Shown: in pieces, positions 38,817 through 46,414 of the stretch
Layout: the number at the start of each line of letters is the position of its first letter
Numbering within the stretch: position 1 is the stretch's first letter
Assembly: GCA_902622515.1 (NCBI GenBank)
Contig: CACNQE010000011.1
Coordinates: forward strand, 1-64,000
From: an uncultured SAR116 cluster alpha proteobacterium
Lineage (GTDB): Bacteria > Pseudomonadota > Alphaproteobacteria > Puniceispirillales > Puniceispirillaceae
DNA length: 64,000 nucleotides
Direction: 5' to 3'
Position numbers and translations under genes: made by a program
Notes under the pieces: generated by a model
Told to the model about the DNA's origin: nothing
Seen by the model: only the letters and a program-made list of their open reading frames with translations
Databases searched by the model: none

Positions 38817-38893
38817 GCGCTCGTAGCTCAGCTGGATAGAGCACTAGACTACGAATCTAGGGGTCAGGAGTTCGAATCTTCTCGAGCGCGCCA
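38817..38893 (+). tRNA. tRNA-Arg (ACG)
   Basis: A full 77-nt cloverleaf with encoded CCA: acceptor GCGCTCG pairs with CGAGCGC, and the anticodon stem CTAGA/TCTAG holds the loop CTACGAA, anticodon ACG. A 57-nt copy of its 3' part lies at 43912 and an integrase lies 103 bases downstream, so the 3' end of this tRNA is the integration site of the element that follows. Confidence 0.96.
38833..38889 (+). repeat. attL: 3' part of tRNA-Arg(ACG) in the island's left copy
   Basis: These 57 bases of the intact tRNA recur at 43912-43968 with two mismatches, at an offset of 5079 bases. The identity covers the anticodon arm and T arm, the usual core of tRNA attachment sites, and stops after the acceptor strand. 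Confidence 0.75.
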
Positions 38894-38961
38894 TTTTTCC
38901 TTCATTAATTCAGTCTGTTATCGTTTAAGGTAATAGATTGGTTTGTGTAAAATGCAGTTTT

Positions 38962-38980
38962 TGACACAGATTTGACACAG
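38962..38980 (+). repeat. Tandem TGACACAG pair (probable integrase arm site), tRNA end
   Basis: Two TGACACAG units spaced by ATT lie 16 bases before the integrase start. The same arrangement, with two base differences in the spacer (TAT instead of ATT), lies at 43826-43844 near the other att copy. Paired arm sites on both sides are what a lambda-type integrase needs. A promoter role for the TTGACA within it is also possible. Confidence 0.5.
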
Positions 38981-38995
38981 TAAAAGGTCAAGTCA

Positions 38996-39976
38996 ATGGG
39001 AAGTGTGCGTAAAAGGGGTAAAACTTGGAATGCTCAAGTAAGGATCTCAGGTTGGAGAAGTTTTACTAAATCATTTAAGTCTAAATCAGACGCATTATGC
39101 TGGATTAAAGCATTAGAAAGTAATCTAAAAAGCACCGATATGCCCAAAGTAAATATTGGAAATATTACACTCAAAGATCTGCTGCAAAGATACGCTACAG
39201 AGATGTCATTACATCTAAAAGGGTCTGAGGTACAAATATATGTTCTAAAATTTTATGCAAGGCACCCTATCTCTCAAATGAAACTTTCAGACCTAACTGA
39301 ACGCCATTTTGAGTATCTACGTGATGAAAGATTAAAACAGGTTAAACACGGAACCGTACATGCTCAATTAATGCTTCTCAAAAGGGTATTTAGGACTGCT
39401 ATTTACAAGTGGGGTTATGGAATTCCTAAAAACCCCATTGAGCACTTACAACTCCCCCCTACTCATAAATCACGCAAACGAAGGTTGGCAAGCAATGAAA
39501 AAAAACGCCTACTCTCTGCCGCTTGCTCTCAGAAAAATATCTATATTGCCTTTATTATTGAATTCGCTGTCGAGACGGGAATGCGTCGTTCTGAAATACT
39601 AAAACTTAGATGGCGTGATATTGATTTTAAAAATGGGTTTGCTTTTCTTTTTGACACTAAAAATGGTGAAGATAGAAAAGTACCTCTCACTACAAGGTGC
39701 ATGAGACTCCTTCAAAAGGTGCCTAAGAGTCATTAAAAAATATTTCCTATTACTGCGAACTGTTTACGCCTTGCATGGGGCAGAGCACGTGCAAAAGCAG
39801 AAATAAAGGATTTGCGATTTCATGATTTAAGGCATGAGGCGATCTCCAGATTCTTCGAGATGGGAATGTCGGTTCCAGAAGTTGCACTCATATCTGGGCA
39901 TAAAGATGTGCGGCAGTTGCTACGATACACTCACTTGAACCCAACTAATATATTTAAGAAGTATGAAGATTTTTAG
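38996..39976 (+). pseudogene. int: Tyrosine-family integrase with an in-frame TAA before the catalytic C-terminus
   Basis: The reading frame encodes a 246-aa N-terminal part (basic DNA-binding residues 1-70, core-binding domain, first catalytic arginine in TGMRRSEILKLRW), then TAA at 39734-39736. The same frame continues without another stop to TAG 39974-39976 and contains the rest of the active site: HDLRHEA (His and Arg), GHKDVRQLL and the tyrosine in RYTH. Removing the one stop gives 326 aa, a normal phage integrase. It lies next to tRNA-Arg, its likely target. A single nonsense mutation, or a sequencing error, explains it. Confidence 0.85.
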
Positions 39977-40027
39977 TCATGTGCCAAATCTACTATCAAA
40001 TTGACCCGCCTCTCCAAGTTCATGCTA

Positions 40028-40390
40028 TCAATAGCAGAGAACGCTATCCGATTTAATTGACTCTTCAACTAGTTTATCAGGCATTGCAAACTCTGCTTTA
40101 TATCCATTTAGAAGTGACTCATCGTAACCTCTTGCCTTAGCAGACATTCCTGAGACAAATATAGTTACATTTGTATTTTTTAAATTTTCAAGATGTTCGT
40201 ATAAGTCCCCAGTACCTTGACCGACTATCTCACCAGCACTTTTGCAATTAAGTATGTGTACTCCGTCTGCAGCGAGAAAAATAGTTACTTCATGCCCACT
40301 TTTTTCTGCAGCAAGAGCAACCATTAAACCTAAAGTCACTTTGTTTTTAAATTCCAAATCACTGTGAATATGAACGAGTACTTTAGACAT
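40028..40390 (-). CDS. DsrE-like (sulfur-relay family) protein
   Basis: A 120-aa protein starting KVLVHIHSDLEFKNKVTLGLMVALAAEKSGHEVTIFLAADGVHIL, here cut as KVLVHIHSDLEFKNKVTLG and HEVTIFLAADGVHIL, with the fold of DsrE/TusD-like domains. It has one cysteine at residue 49 and one near the end; the sulfur-carrying cysteine of DsrE is not certain. Such proteins act in thiol/sulfur transfer or are of unknown function. It lies just downstream of the integrase, on the other strand. Confidence 0.75.
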   Translation of the reverse strand: MSKVLVHIHSDLEFKNKVTLGLMVALAAEKSGHEVTIFLAADGVHILNCKSAGEIVGQGTGDLYEHLENLKNTNVTIFVSGMSAKARGYDESLLNGYKAEFAMPDKLVEESIKSDSVLCY

Positions 40391-40515
40391 TTTCTCTCCT
40401 CAAAATTTTAAAATGCTTGTTTATAGTATGGTATCATATTTTACGTTGACGGAAAACAAAGAGCATAATCTTGCCATTTTATTAGCAAATAATTTAAAAA
40501 AATTTAGAGGGTAAA

Positions 40516-40728
40516 ATGGCAAATTCTGGAATTTATTGGATAGATATAACTTTTGATTACTGCGTTAGACTTCTTTATCAAGTTGCAGGTATGATGGGCA
40601 TTACTTACGAAGAAATAAATGTTTGGTTGTTTGTGATAATTTTACCCGCTATTTTGCTATTTTCTTTGACCTTGAATTTGTATTTTATTTTACGACTTAA
40701 TCAAAAAAATAAGTTAAATGATGCTTAA
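40516..40728 (+). CDS. Small membrane protein, conserved-hypothetical type
   Basis: A 70-aa protein with GAGGG before the ATG. The N-terminus IYWIDITFDYCVRLLYQVAG is amphipathic, GITYEEINVWLFVIILPAIL leads into a single hydrophobic segment (about residues 37-60), and the tail is basic. Small membrane proteins with a YEEINVWLF-like motif are found in marine bacteria as far as I recall; no function is known. Confidence 0.6.
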   Translation: MANSGIYWIDITFDYCVRLLYQVAGMMGITYEEINVWLFVIILPAILLFSLTLNLYFILRLNQKNKLNDA

Positions 40729-40789
40729 ACCAATAGGTGATTTTAAAATTGGTTGGGAAAAGTCCTACTTTAAACTAGATAGTTTTCAT

Positions 40790-40879
40790 GGAGAGGTGAC
40801 AGAGTGGTTGAATGTGGCGGTCTCGAAAACCGTTGTACGTGAAAGCGTACCGAGGGTTCGAATCCCTCTCTCTCCGCCA
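40790..40879 (+). tRNA. tRNA-Ser (CGA)
   Basis: A 90-nt type II tRNA with encoded CCA. The acceptor GGAGAGG pairs with TCTCTCC, the anticodon stem GCGGT/ACCGT holds the loop CTCGAAA (anticodon CGA), and the long variable arm TTGTACGTGAAAGCGTACC is clear. It lies inside the tRNA-Arg island, which is unusual, and has no integrase beside it. Confidence 0.94.
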
Positions 40880-40973
40880 GTTAAAAACATGATAAAATAT
40901 TATTTTTATTTTTTAACATTCGATCCAATTTGATATTCTTCAGACTGAAAACTATAAATACAGAGACTTATCC

Positions 40974-41342
40974 ATGCCTAGAAATATTGTTAAGATTCTT
41001 GAAAAAAACTTTAGTGATATGAAAGCAGGGGAAAAAATGCTTATTTCATCTCCTGAAGTTATTTCTAGTTACATTTCTAGAATTCCGGTGGGAACAACTA
41101 TAACACCCAAAGAGATGAGACATGCGCTTGCAAAAGAAAAAGGTGCAGACAATACCTGCCCAGTGACTACAGGTATATTTCTCAGAATAGCAATAGAAGA
41201 AGTTTTAGATGTTTTTAAGGTAGATGACGCCCCAATTCCGTTTTGGAGGGTCATAGATGAAAAGCACCCCATTCTCAAAAAACTTGGTATCGCCCCATCT
41301 GAAATCACTCGCATGAGACAGAAAGAAGCATCACAAAACTAG
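40974..41342 (+). CDS. MGMT/Atl-like winged-helix protein lacking the active cysteine
   Basis: A 122-aa protein related to the DNA-binding half of O6-alkylguanine alkyltransferases. A helix-turn-helix precedes TPKEMRHALAKEKGADNTCP, and the end of the fold reads PIPFWRVID, where real alkyltransferases have PCHRV and Atl proteins PWHRV. Cysteine and histidine are both missing, so no alkyl transfer is expected. Related proteins with GADxTCPxTTGIFxRIA and YWRVI occur in bacteria from memory; their function is unknown. It starts 94 bases after the tRNA-Ser. Confidence 0.65.
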   Translation: MPRNIVKILEKNFSDMKAGEKMLISSPEVISSYISRIPVGTTITPKEMRHALAKEKGADNTCPVTTGIFLRIAIEEVLDVFKVDDAPIPFWRVIDEKHPILKKLGIAPSEITRMRQKEASQN

Positions 41343-41493
41343 CACACCCATCATTTGTATCTGCTTACATAATGCAAAAGATATTAAACTGTCTTGAGTT
41401 TCTTCATTCGCGTATAAAGTATGAAACAGATGAGTGAATATCATGGGGAGTATTTTTTTAAATGAGTTCTAAATTTCTTTGACGTGGTTTTTT

Positions 41494-41775
41494 ATGAGTG
41501 TTTCAATCAAAAAACGAACAGACGATGTTTTTCAGGTCACTGTTGCAGACAGCATAACCACTACTCATGAGGTGACTGTCAATGACCAAAGTCTCACTGA
41601 CCTTACCGACGACAAAGTGACGAAGGAACAATTGTTAGAGTTTTCCTTCAATTTCCTTCTCGATAGAGAACCAAACACATCCATCCTGTCAAAATTTGAT
41701 ATCAACGTAATTTCAAAATACTTCTCAGACTACAGAGATGAAGTCAAACGATGGTGCAATGAGAGTCAGAATTAA
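41494..41775 (+). CDS. Conserved-hypothetical acidic protein
   Basis: A 93-aa protein from ATG 41494 (15 bases later than the first possible ATG). It starts MSVSIKKRTDDVFQVTVADS and contains KEQLLEFSFNFLLDREPNTSILSKFDINVISKYF, split here as LEFSFNFLLDREPNTSIL and DINVISKYF. The sequence looks like a conserved small protein of alphaproteobacteria, but I cannot name it. It overlaps the next gene by 17 bases. Confidence 0.55.
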   Translation: MSVSIKKRTDDVFQVTVADSITTTHEVTVNDQSLTDLTDDKVTKEQLLEFSFNFLLDREPNTSILSKFDINVISKYFSDYRDEVKRWCNESQN

Positions 41776-41938
41776 GGAATGTTATGTCTGTAATGATGCA
41801 AAGCAAGTCCTGTATCGGTGTCGATACGACGATTTAAAGGATTGGGTGTTTCTGTGCGGAAAGTGTCTAATTGGGGTTAAATCACGATTTGAAGAGACCT
41901 ACCAATACGGTGGCACTTGGAAGAGTAGGAAGAAATAG
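41759..41938 (+). CDS. Small zinc-ribbon-like protein (two CxxC pairs)
   Basis: A 59-aa protein from ATG 41759 (an earlier in-frame ATG is at 41738). It has CYVC near the N-terminus and CGKC later, with YRCRYDDLKDWVFL between, and ends YQYGGTWKSRKK. Two CxxC pairs suggest a single zinc site. It is coupled by overlap to the preceding gene. No function is known. Confidence 0.55.
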   Translation: MRVRIKECYVCNDAKQVLYRCRYDDLKDWVFLCGKCLIGVKSRFEETYQYGGTWKSRKK

Positions 41939-42311
41939 GCGATTATTGCAGTCGCCAATTATGCAATAGAGACGTCCTCAAAAACAAAACCAACTCATCT
42001 CTCAACAAAATACCTTATTATCATATATTAGTGGTTTAGGGATTGGAGTAAGTTCCACCAATAATGTCTTATTGAAGAGATTAAAAGGTAGTATGGTATC
42101 AAAAAGGAAATAAGATACTGTAATATCATACAAAATATACAAAAGTGGTATGATTTTGAAACTGATTATAGAAGATATAAACTATAACGACTTTTCCTAA
42201 ATTATTCAAATTATTCAATAAATTACAACCATTAAAATATATCCATTTATAACTGATTATATTTTAATAAATTCGTATTTAATTATAATTAGATTTTGAT
42301 ACAGTTAAGGT
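41939..42311. other. 373-bp AT-rich intergenic stretch
   Basis: No convincing gene, terminator or repeat was seen here on either strand. It is very AT-rich and ends at a small ORF on the plus strand. Confidence 0.5.
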
Positions 42312-42404
42312 ATGAGAAAAGAATTAAAATTATTTTATAAAGTGATTAGTTTTGAAACTTTAATTTGGATTATCCTATTCGTAGGGTTTTTCTATTTTTT
42401 TTGA
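42312..42404 (+). CDS. Possible 30-aa membrane peptide
   Basis: A short ORF, MRKELKLFYKVISFETLIWI, then ILFVGFFYFF, preceded by AAGG close to the ATG. One hydrophobic segment follows a basic start. It may be a real small membrane peptide or chance; the spacing of 8 bases to the next small ORF suggests a pair. Confidence 0.3.
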   Translation: MRKELKLFYKVISFETLIWIILFVGFFYFF

Positions 42405-42414
42405 GTACGTTTAA

Positions 42415-42591
42415 GTGAGTGATGAAAAAGAAGAGAAAGAACCTTTACATAAGAAGTTTTTTGTAAAGGTAATTTTCTTAAATTGTATTGGTGGTTTTTA
42501 CTTTTTGATGTCTCCATATCAAAACTGTTTGAGAAATTATAAAGAGGGTTCTTCAAAAATCAGAAAATGTACTGAGAAAACTAATTGGTAA
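42415..42591 (+). CDS. Possible small protein with YQNC...CTEKTNW motif
   Basis: A 58-aa ORF from a GTG: a charged start, a hydrophobic helix (FFVKVIFLNCIGGFYFLMS), then SPYQNCLRNYKEGSSKIRKC and CTEKTNW. From memory, small proteins of marine bacteria share a helix followed by SPYQNC and a C-terminal C-x-T-x-W end, which makes this more than chance. Not in most automatic gene lists because of its size and GTG start. Confidence 0.4.
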   Translation: MSDEKEEKEPLHKKFFVKVIFLNCIGGFYFLMSPYQNCLRNYKEGSSKIRKCTEKTNW

Positions 42592-42634
42592 TCAAACTTA
42601 ATAATAAATTAGATTTAATTATCCTTCATTTTCT

Positions 42635-43066
42635 TTAAAAAATCATAGTCGGATTTTTGTTGTACCTTTTCTGTTTTAATTTTTTGATATTATAAATTTT
42701 TTCCATAAAGTCATTTGCGTTATGTTGTTCACATAGGTGGGTAAATTTGTATTGTCTATAAGTATCTTTGTACCCATGAACAAATAAACTTTTTCTATCT
42801 AACATATGATCCTTCCAATGAATAGAATTTTCATCTGTTTTGTAATCATAATTGTGTTTATCTATGAAAACATCATTTTTTGATTGTATAAATTGGTAAT
42901 GAACCAACATATTATCTTCAAAAAGAAAACCTTCGAAAGGTAATTCAAAATGGGAACGTTCATACTCTTTACAAATGAATCCTTTACCATCTAATGAACC
43001 ACCAAAAGAGGGAAAGGATTGAAGAATAAATATTAGGGTAACGAGAAGTATTTTTTCATTTTTCAT
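42635..43066 (-). CDS. Secreted protein of unknown function
   Basis: A 143-aa protein with a signal peptide (KILLVTLIFILQSFPSFGG) and the mature start SLDGKGFICKEYERSHFELP. Two cysteines in the mature part may form a disulfide. It resembles, in plan, the small secreted protein at 62598. No domain is recognised. Confidence 0.5.
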   Translation of the reverse strand: MKNEKILLVTLIFILQSFPSFGGSLDGKGFICKEYERSHFELPFEGFLFEDNMLVHYQFIQSKNDVFIDKHNYDYKTDENSIHWKDHMLDRKSLFVHGYKDTYRQYKFTHLCEQHNANDFMEKIYNIKKLKQKRYNKNPTMIF

Positions 43067-43089
43067 ATTAAATCATAAATTCAAATAAA

Positions 43090-43275
43090 TCAGATTAAAT
43101 TTACCACTTTCCTCTGACTTTCACTATCACTTTCAATATACCTTTGAGTGGTTTGAAGAGATGAGTGACCCACCATCATCTGAATATCTCTGAGAGAACC
43201 ACCTACTAAATGGATAGTTTTCACTATATGTTTGATCAGGGTGAAATTAACGAACTCAGCACCTTTTTGATCTCA
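43090..43275 (-). pseudogene. Remnant of a second tyrosine recombinase (C-terminus only)
   Basis: On the minus strand one frame reads GGSLRDIQMMVGHSSLQTTQ then RYIESDSESQRKVVNLI before a TGA at 43090-43092. This is the C-terminal catalytic part of a tyrosine recombinase: GHSS precedes the nucleophile tyrosine in RYI. No start, and no HxxR motif, can be found upstream; the frame is stopped at about 43275. It is a different family member from the integrase at 38996. Confidence 0.72.
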
Positions 43276-43284
43276 TGAGTATAT

Positions 43285-43311
43285 ATACAAAAAGCATTGA
43301 GTTTTTGATGA
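43285..43311 (+). repeat. 27-bp direct repeat, left copy
   Basis: The perfect 27-bp sequence starting ATACAAAAAGCATTGAG and ending TTTTTGATGA occurs here and at 43737-43763, with similar bases for about 15 more. The repeats flank the hypothetical ORF at 43393. Confidence 0.75.
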
Positions 43312-43392
43312 AATATAGGAAAAATATTTTGAAATTAATTGATTTTTGCCATTAGATATAATCTGCTTTTATATCAAAAAGGAATAAATGTT

Positions 43393-43734
43393 TTGTATTG
43401 TAACGTAATAAAAGCAAACCTTAAGGATGAAAGTGCTTTAAAATCCCTTTTAAATTATACGGATAAGGGCGCTGATCATGATAGATTCGAAAAATTTGGG
43501 GCATTGCTGAAATTTTGGGTAAAAATATCTCCTAGTACTGGCATATTCATAATAATTTATCCTTCAGAAAAACTTTTCATGAACGCAAAGAATGAGTTTA
43601 GTTCTATAATAAAATCTCTAGAATTAACTGGAAGTAAACTAGAAACATTTTCTGGCGCAATCGAGAATTTGAGTTACAATAAAATTTTTTATGATGCCCT
43701 GAGAAAGATTGGGACCGAATTTTCCTTGGACTAA
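43393..43734 (+). CDS. Hypothetical protein between direct repeats
   Basis: The frame is open from 43339, but no ATG starts it. A TTG at 43393 has an AAAAAGGAA site 9 bases upstream, giving 113 aa; a TTG at 43339 would give 131 aa. The protein is mixed charged and not recognised, with SPSTGIFIIIYPSEKLFMNA as its most hydrophobic part. It sits inside a 27-bp direct repeat pair, so it may be cargo of a small insertion or a gene fragment. Confidence 0.35.
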   Translation: MYCNVIKANLKDESALKSLLNYTDKGADHDRFEKFGALLKFWVKISPSTGIFIIIYPSEKLFMNAKNEFSSIIKSLELTGSKLETFSGAIENLSYNKIFYDALRKIGTEFSLD

Positions 43735-43736
43735 TT

Positions 43737-43763
43737 ATACAAAAAGCATTGAGTTTTTGATGA
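43737..43763 (+). repeat. 27-bp direct repeat, right copy
   Basis: Perfect second copy of the repeat at 43285-43311, beginning two bases after the stop of the hypothetical ORF at 43732-43734. The distance between copies is 452 bases. Confidence 0.75.
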
Positions 43764-43825
43764 CATGTAGGAAAAAACTTTAATTATTTTTACCCTTTTT
43801 ATACACATAAAGTGCATCCGATGTA

Positions 43826-43844
43826 TGACACAGTATTGACACAG
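43826..43844 (+). repeat. Tandem TGACACAG pair (probable integrase arm site), far end
   Basis: Two TGACACAG units separated by TAT, matching the pair at 38962-38980 with two differences, both in the 3-base spacer. It lies 68 bases before the displaced tRNA fragment. Confidence 0.5.
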
Positions 43845-43911
43845 TGCATCAGTCGAGTATGCTATATTCATAAATAGGATCTGTTTAAAAACAAGTACTT
43901 AAATGGAAAAA

Positions 43912-43968
43912 TGGATAGAGCACTAGACTACGAATCTGGGGGTCAGAAGTTCGAATCTTCTCGAGCGC
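43912..43968 (+). repeat. attR: displaced 3' fragment of tRNA-Arg(ACG)
   Basis: These 57 bases copy positions 38833-38889 of tRNA-Arg(ACG) with two mismatches. The anticodon loop and T arm are present but the 5' part of the tRNA is missing, so it is not a functional tRNA. The acceptor end then diverges (ATTACC instead of GCCA). Confidence 0.75.
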
Positions 43969-44048
43969 ATTACCATCGTCAAATTTTAGCCTTAATTCAA
44001 TCATCAAATTAGGCTACTGAGGTTTTCAAACGATTGATGTTAATTTTT

Positions 44049-44930
44049 ATGAAAACATTTAAAACAACTATTATTGGAATTGCAATATTGCTAGCGACAG
44101 TTTTACAAGCGCATGAAATTACACTGCCATACAAGAGTTCTGATTGGACCTCAGCAAAAAATTTAAGTAATCAAGTAAAGTTTACAGAGCTTGAAAACAT
44201 AGTAAACATAAAATCAAACGGTATTCCCAATCATAAAACTGGAATTTTTCCAACACGGGGAAATCCGCACAAAATACAGGAACAAACACATTCCTTATAT
44301 TTTACTAAATACCCTCAGAAAAGCGATTACATAACACCTAGCAAATTTTTTGGTGTCGCTTTGAATGGTGTAATGTTTGTACCTCAGACAGCGGAATGCT
44401 GGAGTCCTGAGAAACAACAAGCTTACTTAAAAACGAATAAACGACCTTCTTTAATAATTAGAATCGAACCACAGATAAGGACCAAGGGACATTGTGATTG
44501 GCGTGAAGAAGCAATTGTTTTGGACAAAAAAAGACTAGGCTTAGACATGAATAATGCTCATGTGCAGCCAAATGGAATGTATCATTACCATGGATTACCT
44601 ACCGGTCTAATTGAAACACAAATTACACCTAATGACTTAATTCATGTAGGTTTCGCTGGTGATGGGTTTAAAATTTTTGTATCTTTAAACGACGATTTTA
44701 AATCAAGTTATCGACTTAAAAATGGTGCTAGAAATAGCGGGCCAGATGGCTTGCATGACGGAACCTATACACAAGACTTTGAGTTTTTAAATGGTAAAGG
44801 TGACTTAGATGAGTGTAACGGAATAGATACCAATGCACATGGCTACATTTACTTAATTACAAAAGAGTTTCCTTTTATACCAAGATGCTGGAAAGGCTAT
44901 CCCCACCCCTCGTTTAAGTCTCGCCCGTGA
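44049..44930 (+). CDS. YHYH domain-containing secreted protein
   Basis: A 293-aa protein from ATG 44049 (two upstream in-frame starts exist at 44034 and 44037). It has a signal peptide (KTFKTTIIGIAILLATVLQA) and the YHYH motif in QPNGMYHYHGLPTG near residue 180. YHYH proteins are secreted and of unknown function, often found in marine bacteria and planctomycetes. It lies just outside attR of the tRNA-Arg island. Confidence 0.82.
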   Translation: MKTFKTTIIGIAILLATVLQAHEITLPYKSSDWTSAKNLSNQVKFTELENIVNIKSNGIPNHKTGIFPTRGNPHKIQEQTHSLYFTKYPQKSDYITPSKFFGVALNGVMFVPQTAECWSPEKQQAYLKTNKRPSLIIRIEPQIRTKGHCDWREEAIVLDKKRLGLDMNNAHVQPNGMYHYHGLPTGLIETQITPNDLIHVGFAGDGFKIFVSLNDDFKSSYRLKNGARNSGPDGLHDGTYTQDFEFLNGKGDLDECNGIDTNAHGYIYLITKEFPFIPRCWKGYPHPSFKSRP

Positions 44931-45127
44931 CGAAGCGTTTTTATAATTCATATTTACTTGATAACATAAATTTAGCTGGGTAGAGTGGCGGACCACAAGC
45001 TTAGTTATCAAGAGTTCAAATGTTCTCCAGCGGATCTATTTTTAAATTATTTCGATATCATTTAATAAGGTATTAACATAATAATTGCTTAAATGGTTTG
45101 AAAGAGAACACAAAGGAGAAAACTATA

Positions 45128-45586
45128 ATGTCAAATTTAAAGAAGTTTTTGTTTATGATACCTCTATTTGTTTTACCTTTTTCTACAACCGCTGAAACTG
45201 CTGAAATTGATAGCATTGCGGCATGCGCAGGTGTGGTTATTGGAAATGGCGCTGTTGACTTTTACATGGGAGACGAGGAGGCCTTCGATGTTGCAGCAGA
45301 CATTGCTTATACTGCTTACTTGTCAATTGTTTTTGAGGGGCAGTACTCACAGGAAGATTTACAAATCGCTGACCAAATACTTGCCGTTAACTTAGATAAA
45401 ATTATTGCTGCTTACAATAGCGAAACCTTTGATGATGTTATGTATGAAGAAGTAGTCAGATGTTATAGGGTTTTGTCTTCACAATTAATAGTGAGCAGTC
45501 AGACTATCATTGATAATTATCAAAATTGGGAACAGGTAAAACAATCATCTTTAACCACTATAAAAAGAGTTTTAAATGCTAGCTAG
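45128..45586 (+). CDS. Secreted protein of unknown function
   Basis: A 152-aa protein with an AAGGAGAA ribosome site before ATG 45128 and a signal peptide (KKFLFMIPLFVLPFSTTAET). The mature part is acidic, with SIAACAGVVIGNGAVDFYMG and a second cysteine in EEVVRCYRVLSSQL, so the pair may form a disulfide. No domain is recognised. Confidence 0.6.
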   Translation: MSNLKKFLFMIPLFVLPFSTTAETAEIDSIAACAGVVIGNGAVDFYMGDEEAFDVAADIAYTAYLSIVFEGQYSQEDLQIADQILAVNLDKIIAAYNSETFDDVMYEEVVRCYRVLSSQLIVSSQTIIDNYQNWEQVKQSSLTTIKRVLNAS

Positions 45587-45798
45587 CAAATAGCAGCAGA
45601 TTTTCAATCTTTTCATTTCCGTTTGAATAAATAAATTGGTAAAAGCGCAAAGTTACAAATAATAAAGTATAGGAATTTAAATTTAAAGGTTATGAGTTTT
45701 AATTTTCAGTAACAAACTTTTTTTAGTCTTGTTAATTATTTTTCGTTTATTACAATTTGATGATATAAGTTAACAAAATTTTTGAAAGAGATTCTCAA

Positions 45799-46041
45799 AT
45801 GATATCAGATCAGGATGTGGCAAGCTATATTTCAAGTCTTAAAGGTAGAAAAGCTTACGAACAAAAAAAATCTAAAAAACTAGGCTTTCATTCTTTCGAA
45901 GATTATATTGAAAACAAACTTCTGCAAAGGCTACAAACTCATGTTAACATAGATGAGGAATTCGCAAAAAGTGACCAAAATAAAATGATAAAGAAAGAAA
46001 AAACAGCTTCTAAAAGTAGCTGTGGCTGCTGCAACCATTAG
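45799..46041 (+). CDS. Small hypothetical protein with a cysteine-rich tail
   Basis: An 80-aa charged, mostly helical protein beginning MISDQDVASYISSLKGRKAY and ending SSCGCCNH. GAAAGAGA lies upstream of the ATG. The terminal CGCC may bind a metal. It lies next to tRNA-Arg(TCG) on the same strand. No family recognised. Confidence 0.5.
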   Translation: MISDQDVASYISSLKGRKAYEQKKSKKLGFHSFEDYIENKLLQRLQTHVNIDEEFAKSDQNKMIKKEKTASKSSCGCCNH

Positions 46042-46059
46042 AAATTGATATAAATTTAA

Positions 46060-46136
46060 GCGCCTGTAGCTCAGCTGGATAGAGCACTAGACTTCGAATC
46101 TAGGGGTCAGGGGTTCGAATCCTCTCGGGCGCGCCA
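46060..46136 (+). tRNA. tRNA-Arg (TCG)
   Basis: A 77-nt tRNA with encoded CCA. Acceptor GCGCCTG pairs with CGGGCGC (one G-U), and the anticodon stem CTAGA/TCTAG holds CTTCGAA with anticodon TCG. It is very similar to the tRNA-Arg(ACG) at 38817, differing mainly in the anticodon and the acceptor stem. Confidence 0.95.
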
Positions 46137-46414
46137 TTTCTCAATAAAAACAATGAGTTAAAAAACCTATTAATACCCAAAACGAAGTAAACATTTTCGG
46201 GGGATCAAATAGGGGGTAACTTTCGTATTGTCAAAGGAGTATTTGAGCGCTAAAATTTTGGTTAGATCAACCTTATAAAAGTCAAACAAAGCCTCGATTT
46301 CTTGTGTCTTTGTTTTTTTAATTTAATAATATGGTCAATTACTAGAAGCAAGTCTCTCTTTTTGTGCTAAAATTACGACGAACACCATTAATTTTTCGAT
46401 TGGTATGTTTTTAT

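Follow-up and report, generated by a model that had tools for sequence, protein, structure and literature searches.

We describe a small integrated element in the window, a 64,000-nucleotide (nt) stretch of DNA from an uncultured SAR116 cluster alphaproteobacterium (contig CACNQE010000011.1, positions 1 to 64,000). The segment 38817-43968 opens with a tRNA-Arg(ACG) gene, which a tyrosine integrase and cargo genes follow, and closes with a displaced tRNA fragment 5.08 kb away. Our reading, to which we assign a probability of roughly 0.87, is that this island is a degenerate copy of a SAR116-order family of small (2.8-7.3 kb) integrative elements that use tRNA-Arg genes and are driven by an integrase, and that the tRNA-Ser(CGA) is conserved cargo. 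The kind of element, a tRNA-targeted integrative element of the Islander type, is already known; the family itself is apparently undescribed, and its cargo unusual. Among the papers listed by our searches of the open-access literature, none describes this family or tRNA-bearing SAR116 elements, which is weak evidence of absence. Elements with both ends visible come from two or more bacterial families of a marine order, which makes their recombination directly testable. Throughout, G labels genomes (G000 is the window's own), C contigs and L loci; f1 is the window's family and g1 its genus. Features are collected in Table 1.

Boundaries of the island

The initial annotation had proposed that a 57-nt piece of tRNA-Arg(ACG) recurs with two mismatches 5,079 bases downstream, and a repeat search returns exactly this: 38833-38889 and 43912-43968 agree at 55/57 positions with a spacing of 5079, and the repeat covers nt 17-73 of the tRNA. 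The near-identical double repeats that it saw just inside both ends are there as well. The sequence TGACACAGNNTTGACACAG occurs in the same orientation at 38962 and 43826, with TGACACAG repeats paired inside both island ends, and the distances are conserved in nine elements (see below). A 32-nt pattern spanning the left repeat copy has one match in the window, where shuffles predict 0.00 (at most 3 mismatches). The island thus has what defines an Islander-type element, namely an intact tRNA and, in matching orientation, a displaced 3' piece of it, with a tyrosine integrase gene between the two, albeit one with an in-frame stop. The island has a GC content of 0.33; for the window outside 38817-46200 the value is 0.38. 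A further tRNA gene, tRNA-Arg(UCG), is found at 46060-46136 (ARAGORN and the Rfam tRNA model).

Table 1. Features of the tRNA-Arg(ACG) island (positions in the window; aa, amino acids; ORF, open reading frame).
Feature	Position	Strand	Basis or remark
Intact tRNA-Arg(ACG), left boundary (attachment site attL)	38817..38893	+	ARAGORN, Rfam tRNA model
Left putative arm-type repeat, TGACACAG-AT-TTGACACAG	38962..38980	+	Starts 69 nt after tRNA
Tyrosine integrase, broken	38996..39976	+	Single in-frame TAA at 39734-39736
DsrE/DsrF-like protein, 120 aa	40028..40390	-	PF02635, 4.8e-14
70-aa ORF	40516..40728	+	Also in G001, G004, G005
Complete tRNA-Ser(CGA), CCA encoded	40790..40879	+	ARAGORN, Rfam tRNA model
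122-aa protein, possibly alkyltransferase-like (Atl/MGMT) fold	40974..41342	+	Structure model, Foldseek
93-aa cargo protein	41494..41775	+	Also in L039, L080, L126, L130
66-aa protein with CxxC-type pairs (by eye)	41738..41938	+	Reaches no family cut-off
143-aa ORF	42635..43066	-	98% relative in G004, 29% relative in L185
Second tyrosine recombinase, C-terminal remnant (about the last 60 codons)	43093..43272	-	PHROG 216, 1.2e-8; below Pfam cut-off
131-aa ORF	43339..43734	+	87% relative beside tRNA-Arg fragment in G008 (L127)
Right putative arm-type repeat, TGACACAG-TA-TTGACACAG	43826..43844	+	Repeat search
Displaced tRNA-Arg 3' fragment (attR)	43912..43968	+	nt 17-73, 55/57 identical

Two relatives present an unoccupied site. 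In G003, a member of the same genus, the YHYH gene, which in the window lies beyond attR, comes next after tRNA-Arg(ACG), and the island is absent. The first bases after the tRNA in G003 differ from the window's flank. In G039, which belongs to another genus of the same family, the sequence from the tRNA on aligns with the window's attR and its downstream sequence at 74%. An island-free relative had been expected to lack a segment with the two 57-nt copies as its exact ends. This is borne out in part, in G003 as to gene order but not as to the immediate flank, for which the better match comes from G039. The broader proposal of an integrated element stands, with the att copies, the arm-like repeats in nine elements and the unoccupied tRNA-Arg(ACG) of G003 behind it. 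The tRNA-Arg site is used repeatedly, since tRNA-Arg fragments surround the YHYH and 162-aa genes in G039 and G045. In L085 (2136-3870, G045) and L086 (2137-3306, G039), the fragments bracket single genes (162-aa, YHYH) in orders that differ, like small stacked cassettes.

The element family in relatives

With the G005 integrase as query, matches at E<=1e-50 are found in 51/151 genomes. We fetched 20 regions, 18 with the family integrase and two without. The displaced tRNA-Arg fragment and both repeats occur in 8 of the 18 integrase regions (L167, L168, L171, L172, L178, L182, L183, L184), which together with the window gives nine elements of complete plan in the same order. In these nine, 69-71 nt separate the tRNA from the start of the left repeat, and the right repeat, which lies inward of the fragment, starts 80-82 nt ahead of the position that corresponds to tRNA nt 12. 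Repeats at such conserved distances from both ends are what would be expected of arm-type sites. The length from tRNA end to fragment end is 2.8-7.3 kb where both ends are visible, and the targets with both ends are the tRNA-Arg genes ACG (beside gpt) and UCG. For tRNA-Arg CCG, three regions (L175, L176, L180) have the integrase and the left repeat, and the right fragment was not found. Among the 77 genomes where gpt is matched strongly (81 if any match counts), at least 17 have the family integrase no more than 4 kb from gpt. Elements also stack at one tRNA: L171 holds three fragments and two integrases. In G015, an integrase 13 kb from the tRNA has a tRNA-Arg 3' fragment (L174, 14822-14845) 69 nt ahead of its repeat, likely another case of stacking, as if newer insertions had pushed the older integrase outwards. 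L130 has the tRNA fragment, the integrase only as a fragment, and no repeat match.

Apart from the integrase, no protein family occurs in more than 6 of 19 integrase-selected element stretches. Two of the elements encode a Rep-like protein (L171, 2621-3172, and L172, 2649-3170; PF23343 at 7.8e-6 and 6.3e-5, both under the cut-off), a hint that the elements may replicate once excised. Relatives of the integrase on plasmids were considered and set aside, as all 2697 records lie below 60% identity (36.8-42.2% in the best 15 of 2697).

Several observations weigh against the reading given at the outset. The right fragment was not found in 10 of the 18 integrase regions (L169, L170, L173, L174, L175, L176, L177, L179, L180, L185), nor did it appear in a second search of these regions that used their own tRNA-Arg and the CCG gene as queries. 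The sequence after the integrase is shorter than 5 kb in L169, L170, L175, L176 and L177, and about 10-13 kb in L173, L179, L180 and L185. L174 (before the integrase) and L179 contain short tRNA fragments, neither at a recognisable right end, and the exact repeat is absent from L173 and L179. For the closest islands, those of G004 and G007, a right fragment is absent from the 7.7 and 6.2 kb of sequence examined, respectively. An excised circle was not seen. IMG/VR gave two distant integrases and one relative of the 66-aa protein, and no match for the 122-aa and 93-aa proteins, with single sequences as queries that reach close relatives only. Finally, no CGA gene is found at E<=1e-18 in G002, G006 and G009, and the gene may be dispensable; this rests on G002 (92% complete), because the contigs of G006 and G009 end inside this tRNA-Arg.

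Integrases and decay of the window copy

An integrase had been placed next to the tRNA; it is indeed there, but the in-frame TAA that breaks it had been missed. Intact 326-aa relatives are found at the same tRNA in G004, G007, G008 and G017, and also on a 3-kb contig of G005, with identities to the G005 integrase of 92-96% (G004, G007, G008) and 73% (G017). Two further features were absent from the initial annotation, the remnant of a second integrase and the departure from AG-422-K21 beyond 43210. The second recombinase has 200 aa in L039 and 207 aa in L082. L039 is the island region of the SAR116 isolate AG-422-K21 (G004), and it matches the window at 96% identity over 6.2 kb including the upstream flank. 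The match ends at 43210, inside the second integrase, so the window copy looks shortened or rearranged. Because one integrase has an in-frame stop and the other is reduced to its tail, the window copy is probably immobile by itself. In-frame stops are also present in integrases of the same family in G001:C12, G033:C21, G044:C28, G054:C38 and G095:C21, and decay after insertion seems frequent among them. At this tRNA-Arg(ACG), G002 carries a different tyrosine recombinase, of 392 aa (L083, 337-1515, minus strand); unrelated elements may compete for this site.

The end of the AG-422-K21 match inside the second integrase also bears on another history, in which the island is a composite of two or more elements. 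An older element, represented by the 131-aa ORF and attR, and a newer one with the integrase, DsrE, tRNA-Ser and the 122-aa gene would have used the same tRNA and been joined by a deletion at the second-integrase remnant. G008, where one contig carries the second integrase and another opens with the 131-aa ORF and a tRNA fragment, is in keeping with this, as is the stacking, plain in L171 with its three fragments and two integrases and likely in G015, where a short tRNA fragment precedes the repeat of the integrase 13 kb from the tRNA. The window, however, has one left and one right set of repeat and att site at the distances of the family, as a single element would have. We regard the composite as possible, if doubtful.

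Proposed mechanism and known systems

In the mechanism that we propose for a single tRNA-Arg element, the family's tyrosine integrase would insert a circular element, by recombination, into the 3' portion of a tRNA-Arg gene. With the element would come a copy of about nt 12-77 of the tRNA, which restores the target and leaves its former 3' portion at the far end, and the paired TGACACAG repeats at both ends would be the arm sites of the integrase. The att copies, the repeat geometry, the island-free site in a relative, the relatives at ACG and UCG tRNA-Arg genes and the decay can all be read from the sequences, and at that level integration by the integrase is well supported. Excision, circularisation and transfer between cells with outside help, be it a phage, a vesicle or the uptake of DNA, are steps that we infer. 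An outside carrier is invoked because no conjugation or virion gene was recognised: the island ORFs that were scanned include no relaxase or conjugation gene, as would mark an integrative and conjugative or an integrative and mobilizable element, and the window ORFs that were scanned include no primase, AlpA, capsid or terminase. The sole virion-type match is that of the 93-aa protein, at E 0.092.

A phage satellite of the PICMI or VEIME kind, moved in virions, would share the small size and the combination of an integrase with small ORFs, and the Rep-like protein of L171 and L172 (PF23343, below cut-off) fits with it. Against it stand the missing primase, AlpA, capsid and terminase among the scanned window ORFs and the few IMG/VR matches, and we consider it unlikely. 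A phage origin was put aside together with it, as no structural, packaging or primase genes were recognised among the ORFs of the window, IMG/VR matches are few, and in the phage-record matches listed a relative aligned by its tRNA part alone. PICMI insertion takes place at fis. The resemblance to PICMI satellites (PMC10803314) is that of a minimal marine integrative element with an integrase; unlike them, whose core is formed by integrase, AlpA and primase, the island has no AlpA or primase recognised among the ORFs scanned, and its site is tRNA-Arg.

The closest comparison is with Islander genomic islands (PMC4383910), which share with the present elements a tyrosine integrase, an intact tRNA at one end, a displaced 3' fragment at the other and tandem arrays at one tRNA. 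Islander islands have size peaks at 13.6 and 39.9 kb, whereas here we find 2.8-7.3 kb, a conserved repeat pair at fixed distances from both ends, and a tRNA isoacceptor that recurs as cargo in one genus. The nearest analogues from the sea are PICMIs and tycheposons. Tycheposons, described as spanning 4-200 kb and using 7 tRNA genes in Prochlorococcus (PMC10872708), are likewise found in aquatic plankton bacteria and have a tyrosine recombinase, a border tRNA gene and cargo, a likeness of description only.

The tRNA-Ser(CGA) cargo

The tRNA-Ser(CGA) is genuine cargo of the island. The initial annotation called it unusual for a small element, which it is, and the gene recurs in relatives downstream of other tRNA-Arg genes. 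It is the sole CGA serine tRNA found in the assembly (95% complete), where the other serine tRNAs found are UGA, GCU and GGA. Copies at 96-100% identity are present in 10/101 genomes, its own included (nine relatives). Within genus g1, it lies downstream of three tRNA-Arg genes: ACG (G000, G004, G007), accompanied in all three genomes by the integrase, UCG (G003, G008) and CCG (G001). In G005, the gene and the integrase share the 3-kb contig. In L079, L080 and L127, 88-89 of the 90 nt of the tRNA-Ser are retained, and its flanks agree at only 41-55/80 positions upstream and 28-35/60 downstream; conservation of the gene while the flanks diverge suggests that it is under selection. L039 and L126 are uninformative in this respect, with flanks that are conserved too.

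Some copies invite a different explanation, that the tRNA-Ser(CGA) is a resident gene beside tRNA-Arg genes, trapped between att copies and not travelling with the elements. The copies of G003, after tRNA-Arg(UCG), and of G001, after tRNA-Arg(CCG) and just past a tRNA fragment, have no family integrase that could be found in the sequence examined. G024 has the gene inverted near tRNA-Arg, and G028:C7 and G054 show no recognisable element context around it in the sequence examined. Other CGA genes of f1 (G010, G012, G031, G036, G053) are 88-89% identical and have no integrase nearby by profile, so not every CGA gene in f1 is on an element. A resident gene is hard to reconcile with the copies that one genus has after three different tRNA-Arg genes (ACG, UCG, CCG), with the G008 copy after tRNA-Arg(UCG), directly behind an integrase remnant with the family's left end, and with the ACG site of G003, where tRNA-Arg(ACG) and the YHYH gene have no tRNA-Ser between them. 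We think it quite improbable.

That the tRNA-Ser serves the translation of the element itself, as proposed for phage tRNAs, is very improbable: phage records with annotated tRNA-Ser genes do match the tRNA part of the query (among the phage-record matches listed, only the tRNA part of a relative aligned), but UCG is rarer in the island ORFs (2/73 serine codons, a small count) than in 54 ORFs, called mechanically, from elsewhere in the window (81/1176). Since the island ORFs do not overuse UCG, the tRNA-Ser probably serves the host or hitchhikes. We also tried it as a second attachment site, given a fragment of nt 1-70 in L132 and one of nt 72-90 in L082, for which partial deletion is the simpler explanation.

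In the sister family f2, 10/11 loci have a CGA gene upstream of rplU-rpmA-obg, and no tRNA lies there in 36/36 loci of f1, counting loci with at least 1.5 kb upstream (L211, L227 and L248, which are shorter, and 10/49 f1 genomes with an rplU match are outside the count). As cargo of the tRNA-Arg elements, the tRNA-Ser(CGA) would supply the host with the isoacceptor missing from its sister-family place, a functional step that, like the direction of loss and gain of the gene, we infer. Tentatively, and with less conviction than for the element itself, we suggest that in f1 the tRNA-Ser(CGA) may be a roaming gene passed between genomes by tRNA-Arg elements, and the decoding set partly accessory and mobile. 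The island is a concrete case in which the sole tRNA gene found for an anticodon sits on a mobile element, and it makes testable whether small-genome plankton gain part of their tRNA sets horizontally.

Other cargo

The remaining cargo had been described as DsrE-like, Atl-like and zinc-ribbon-like, of which the first holds firmly. The DsrE-like protein reaches PF02635 at 4.8e-14, and relatives of 38% identity are found inside the elements L167 and L168 of family f4. For the 122-aa protein, the Atl-like label has weak fold support only. Its predicted model has a pLDDT (predicted confidence) of 90, the top Foldseek matches are ATL and MGMT proteins (E 0.2, TM 0.45-0.50, 13% identity), and there is no PDB sequence match at E<=1. 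The best fold match is the alkyltransferase-like protein of S. pombe (ATL, 3gx4), and, as in that protein, the PxxRVI motif has no cysteine. Where MGMT has what we take to be the motif PCHRVI, the 122-aa protein reads PFWRVI, and the acceptor cysteine is missing. Relatives of this protein occur at 40 loci, in records named SAR116, SAR86, Rhodobacteraceae, Flammeovirgaceae and others. Its gene was rejected as a marker of elements elsewhere, as the integrase profile finds none in the examined flanks of 38/38 other loci (L041-L078), with misses possible, given that the profile recovers 4/6 of the other integrase loci of its own genome.

The 66-aa protein, the one labelled zinc-ribbon-like, reaches no family cut-off. 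Relatives are found in L039, L079, L080, L090, L126, L130, L184 and one IMG/VR contig (L166), and L178 has a weak match only (34%, 5e-5). L166 (IMGVR_UViG_3300017758_005835) is a 'viral' contig of 10 kb that encodes a relative of the 66-aa protein at 80%. Inspection by eye, with no family search made, shows resolvase-like and GIY-YIG-like proteins on it and no virion genes, so it may be a chromosomal element. The possibility of a defence island was dismissed, as seven cargo proteins are without a PADLOC match. The 131-aa ORF is enclosed within the island by a 53-nt direct repeat (87%; 43277-43329 and 43729-43781). Elsewhere in the window's own genome, other integrases lie near tRNA-Ser(UGA) and tRNA-Gly(GCC) (G000:C1:58170-58589, L254, and G000:C6:20546-21025, L253), which suggests further tRNA islands there.

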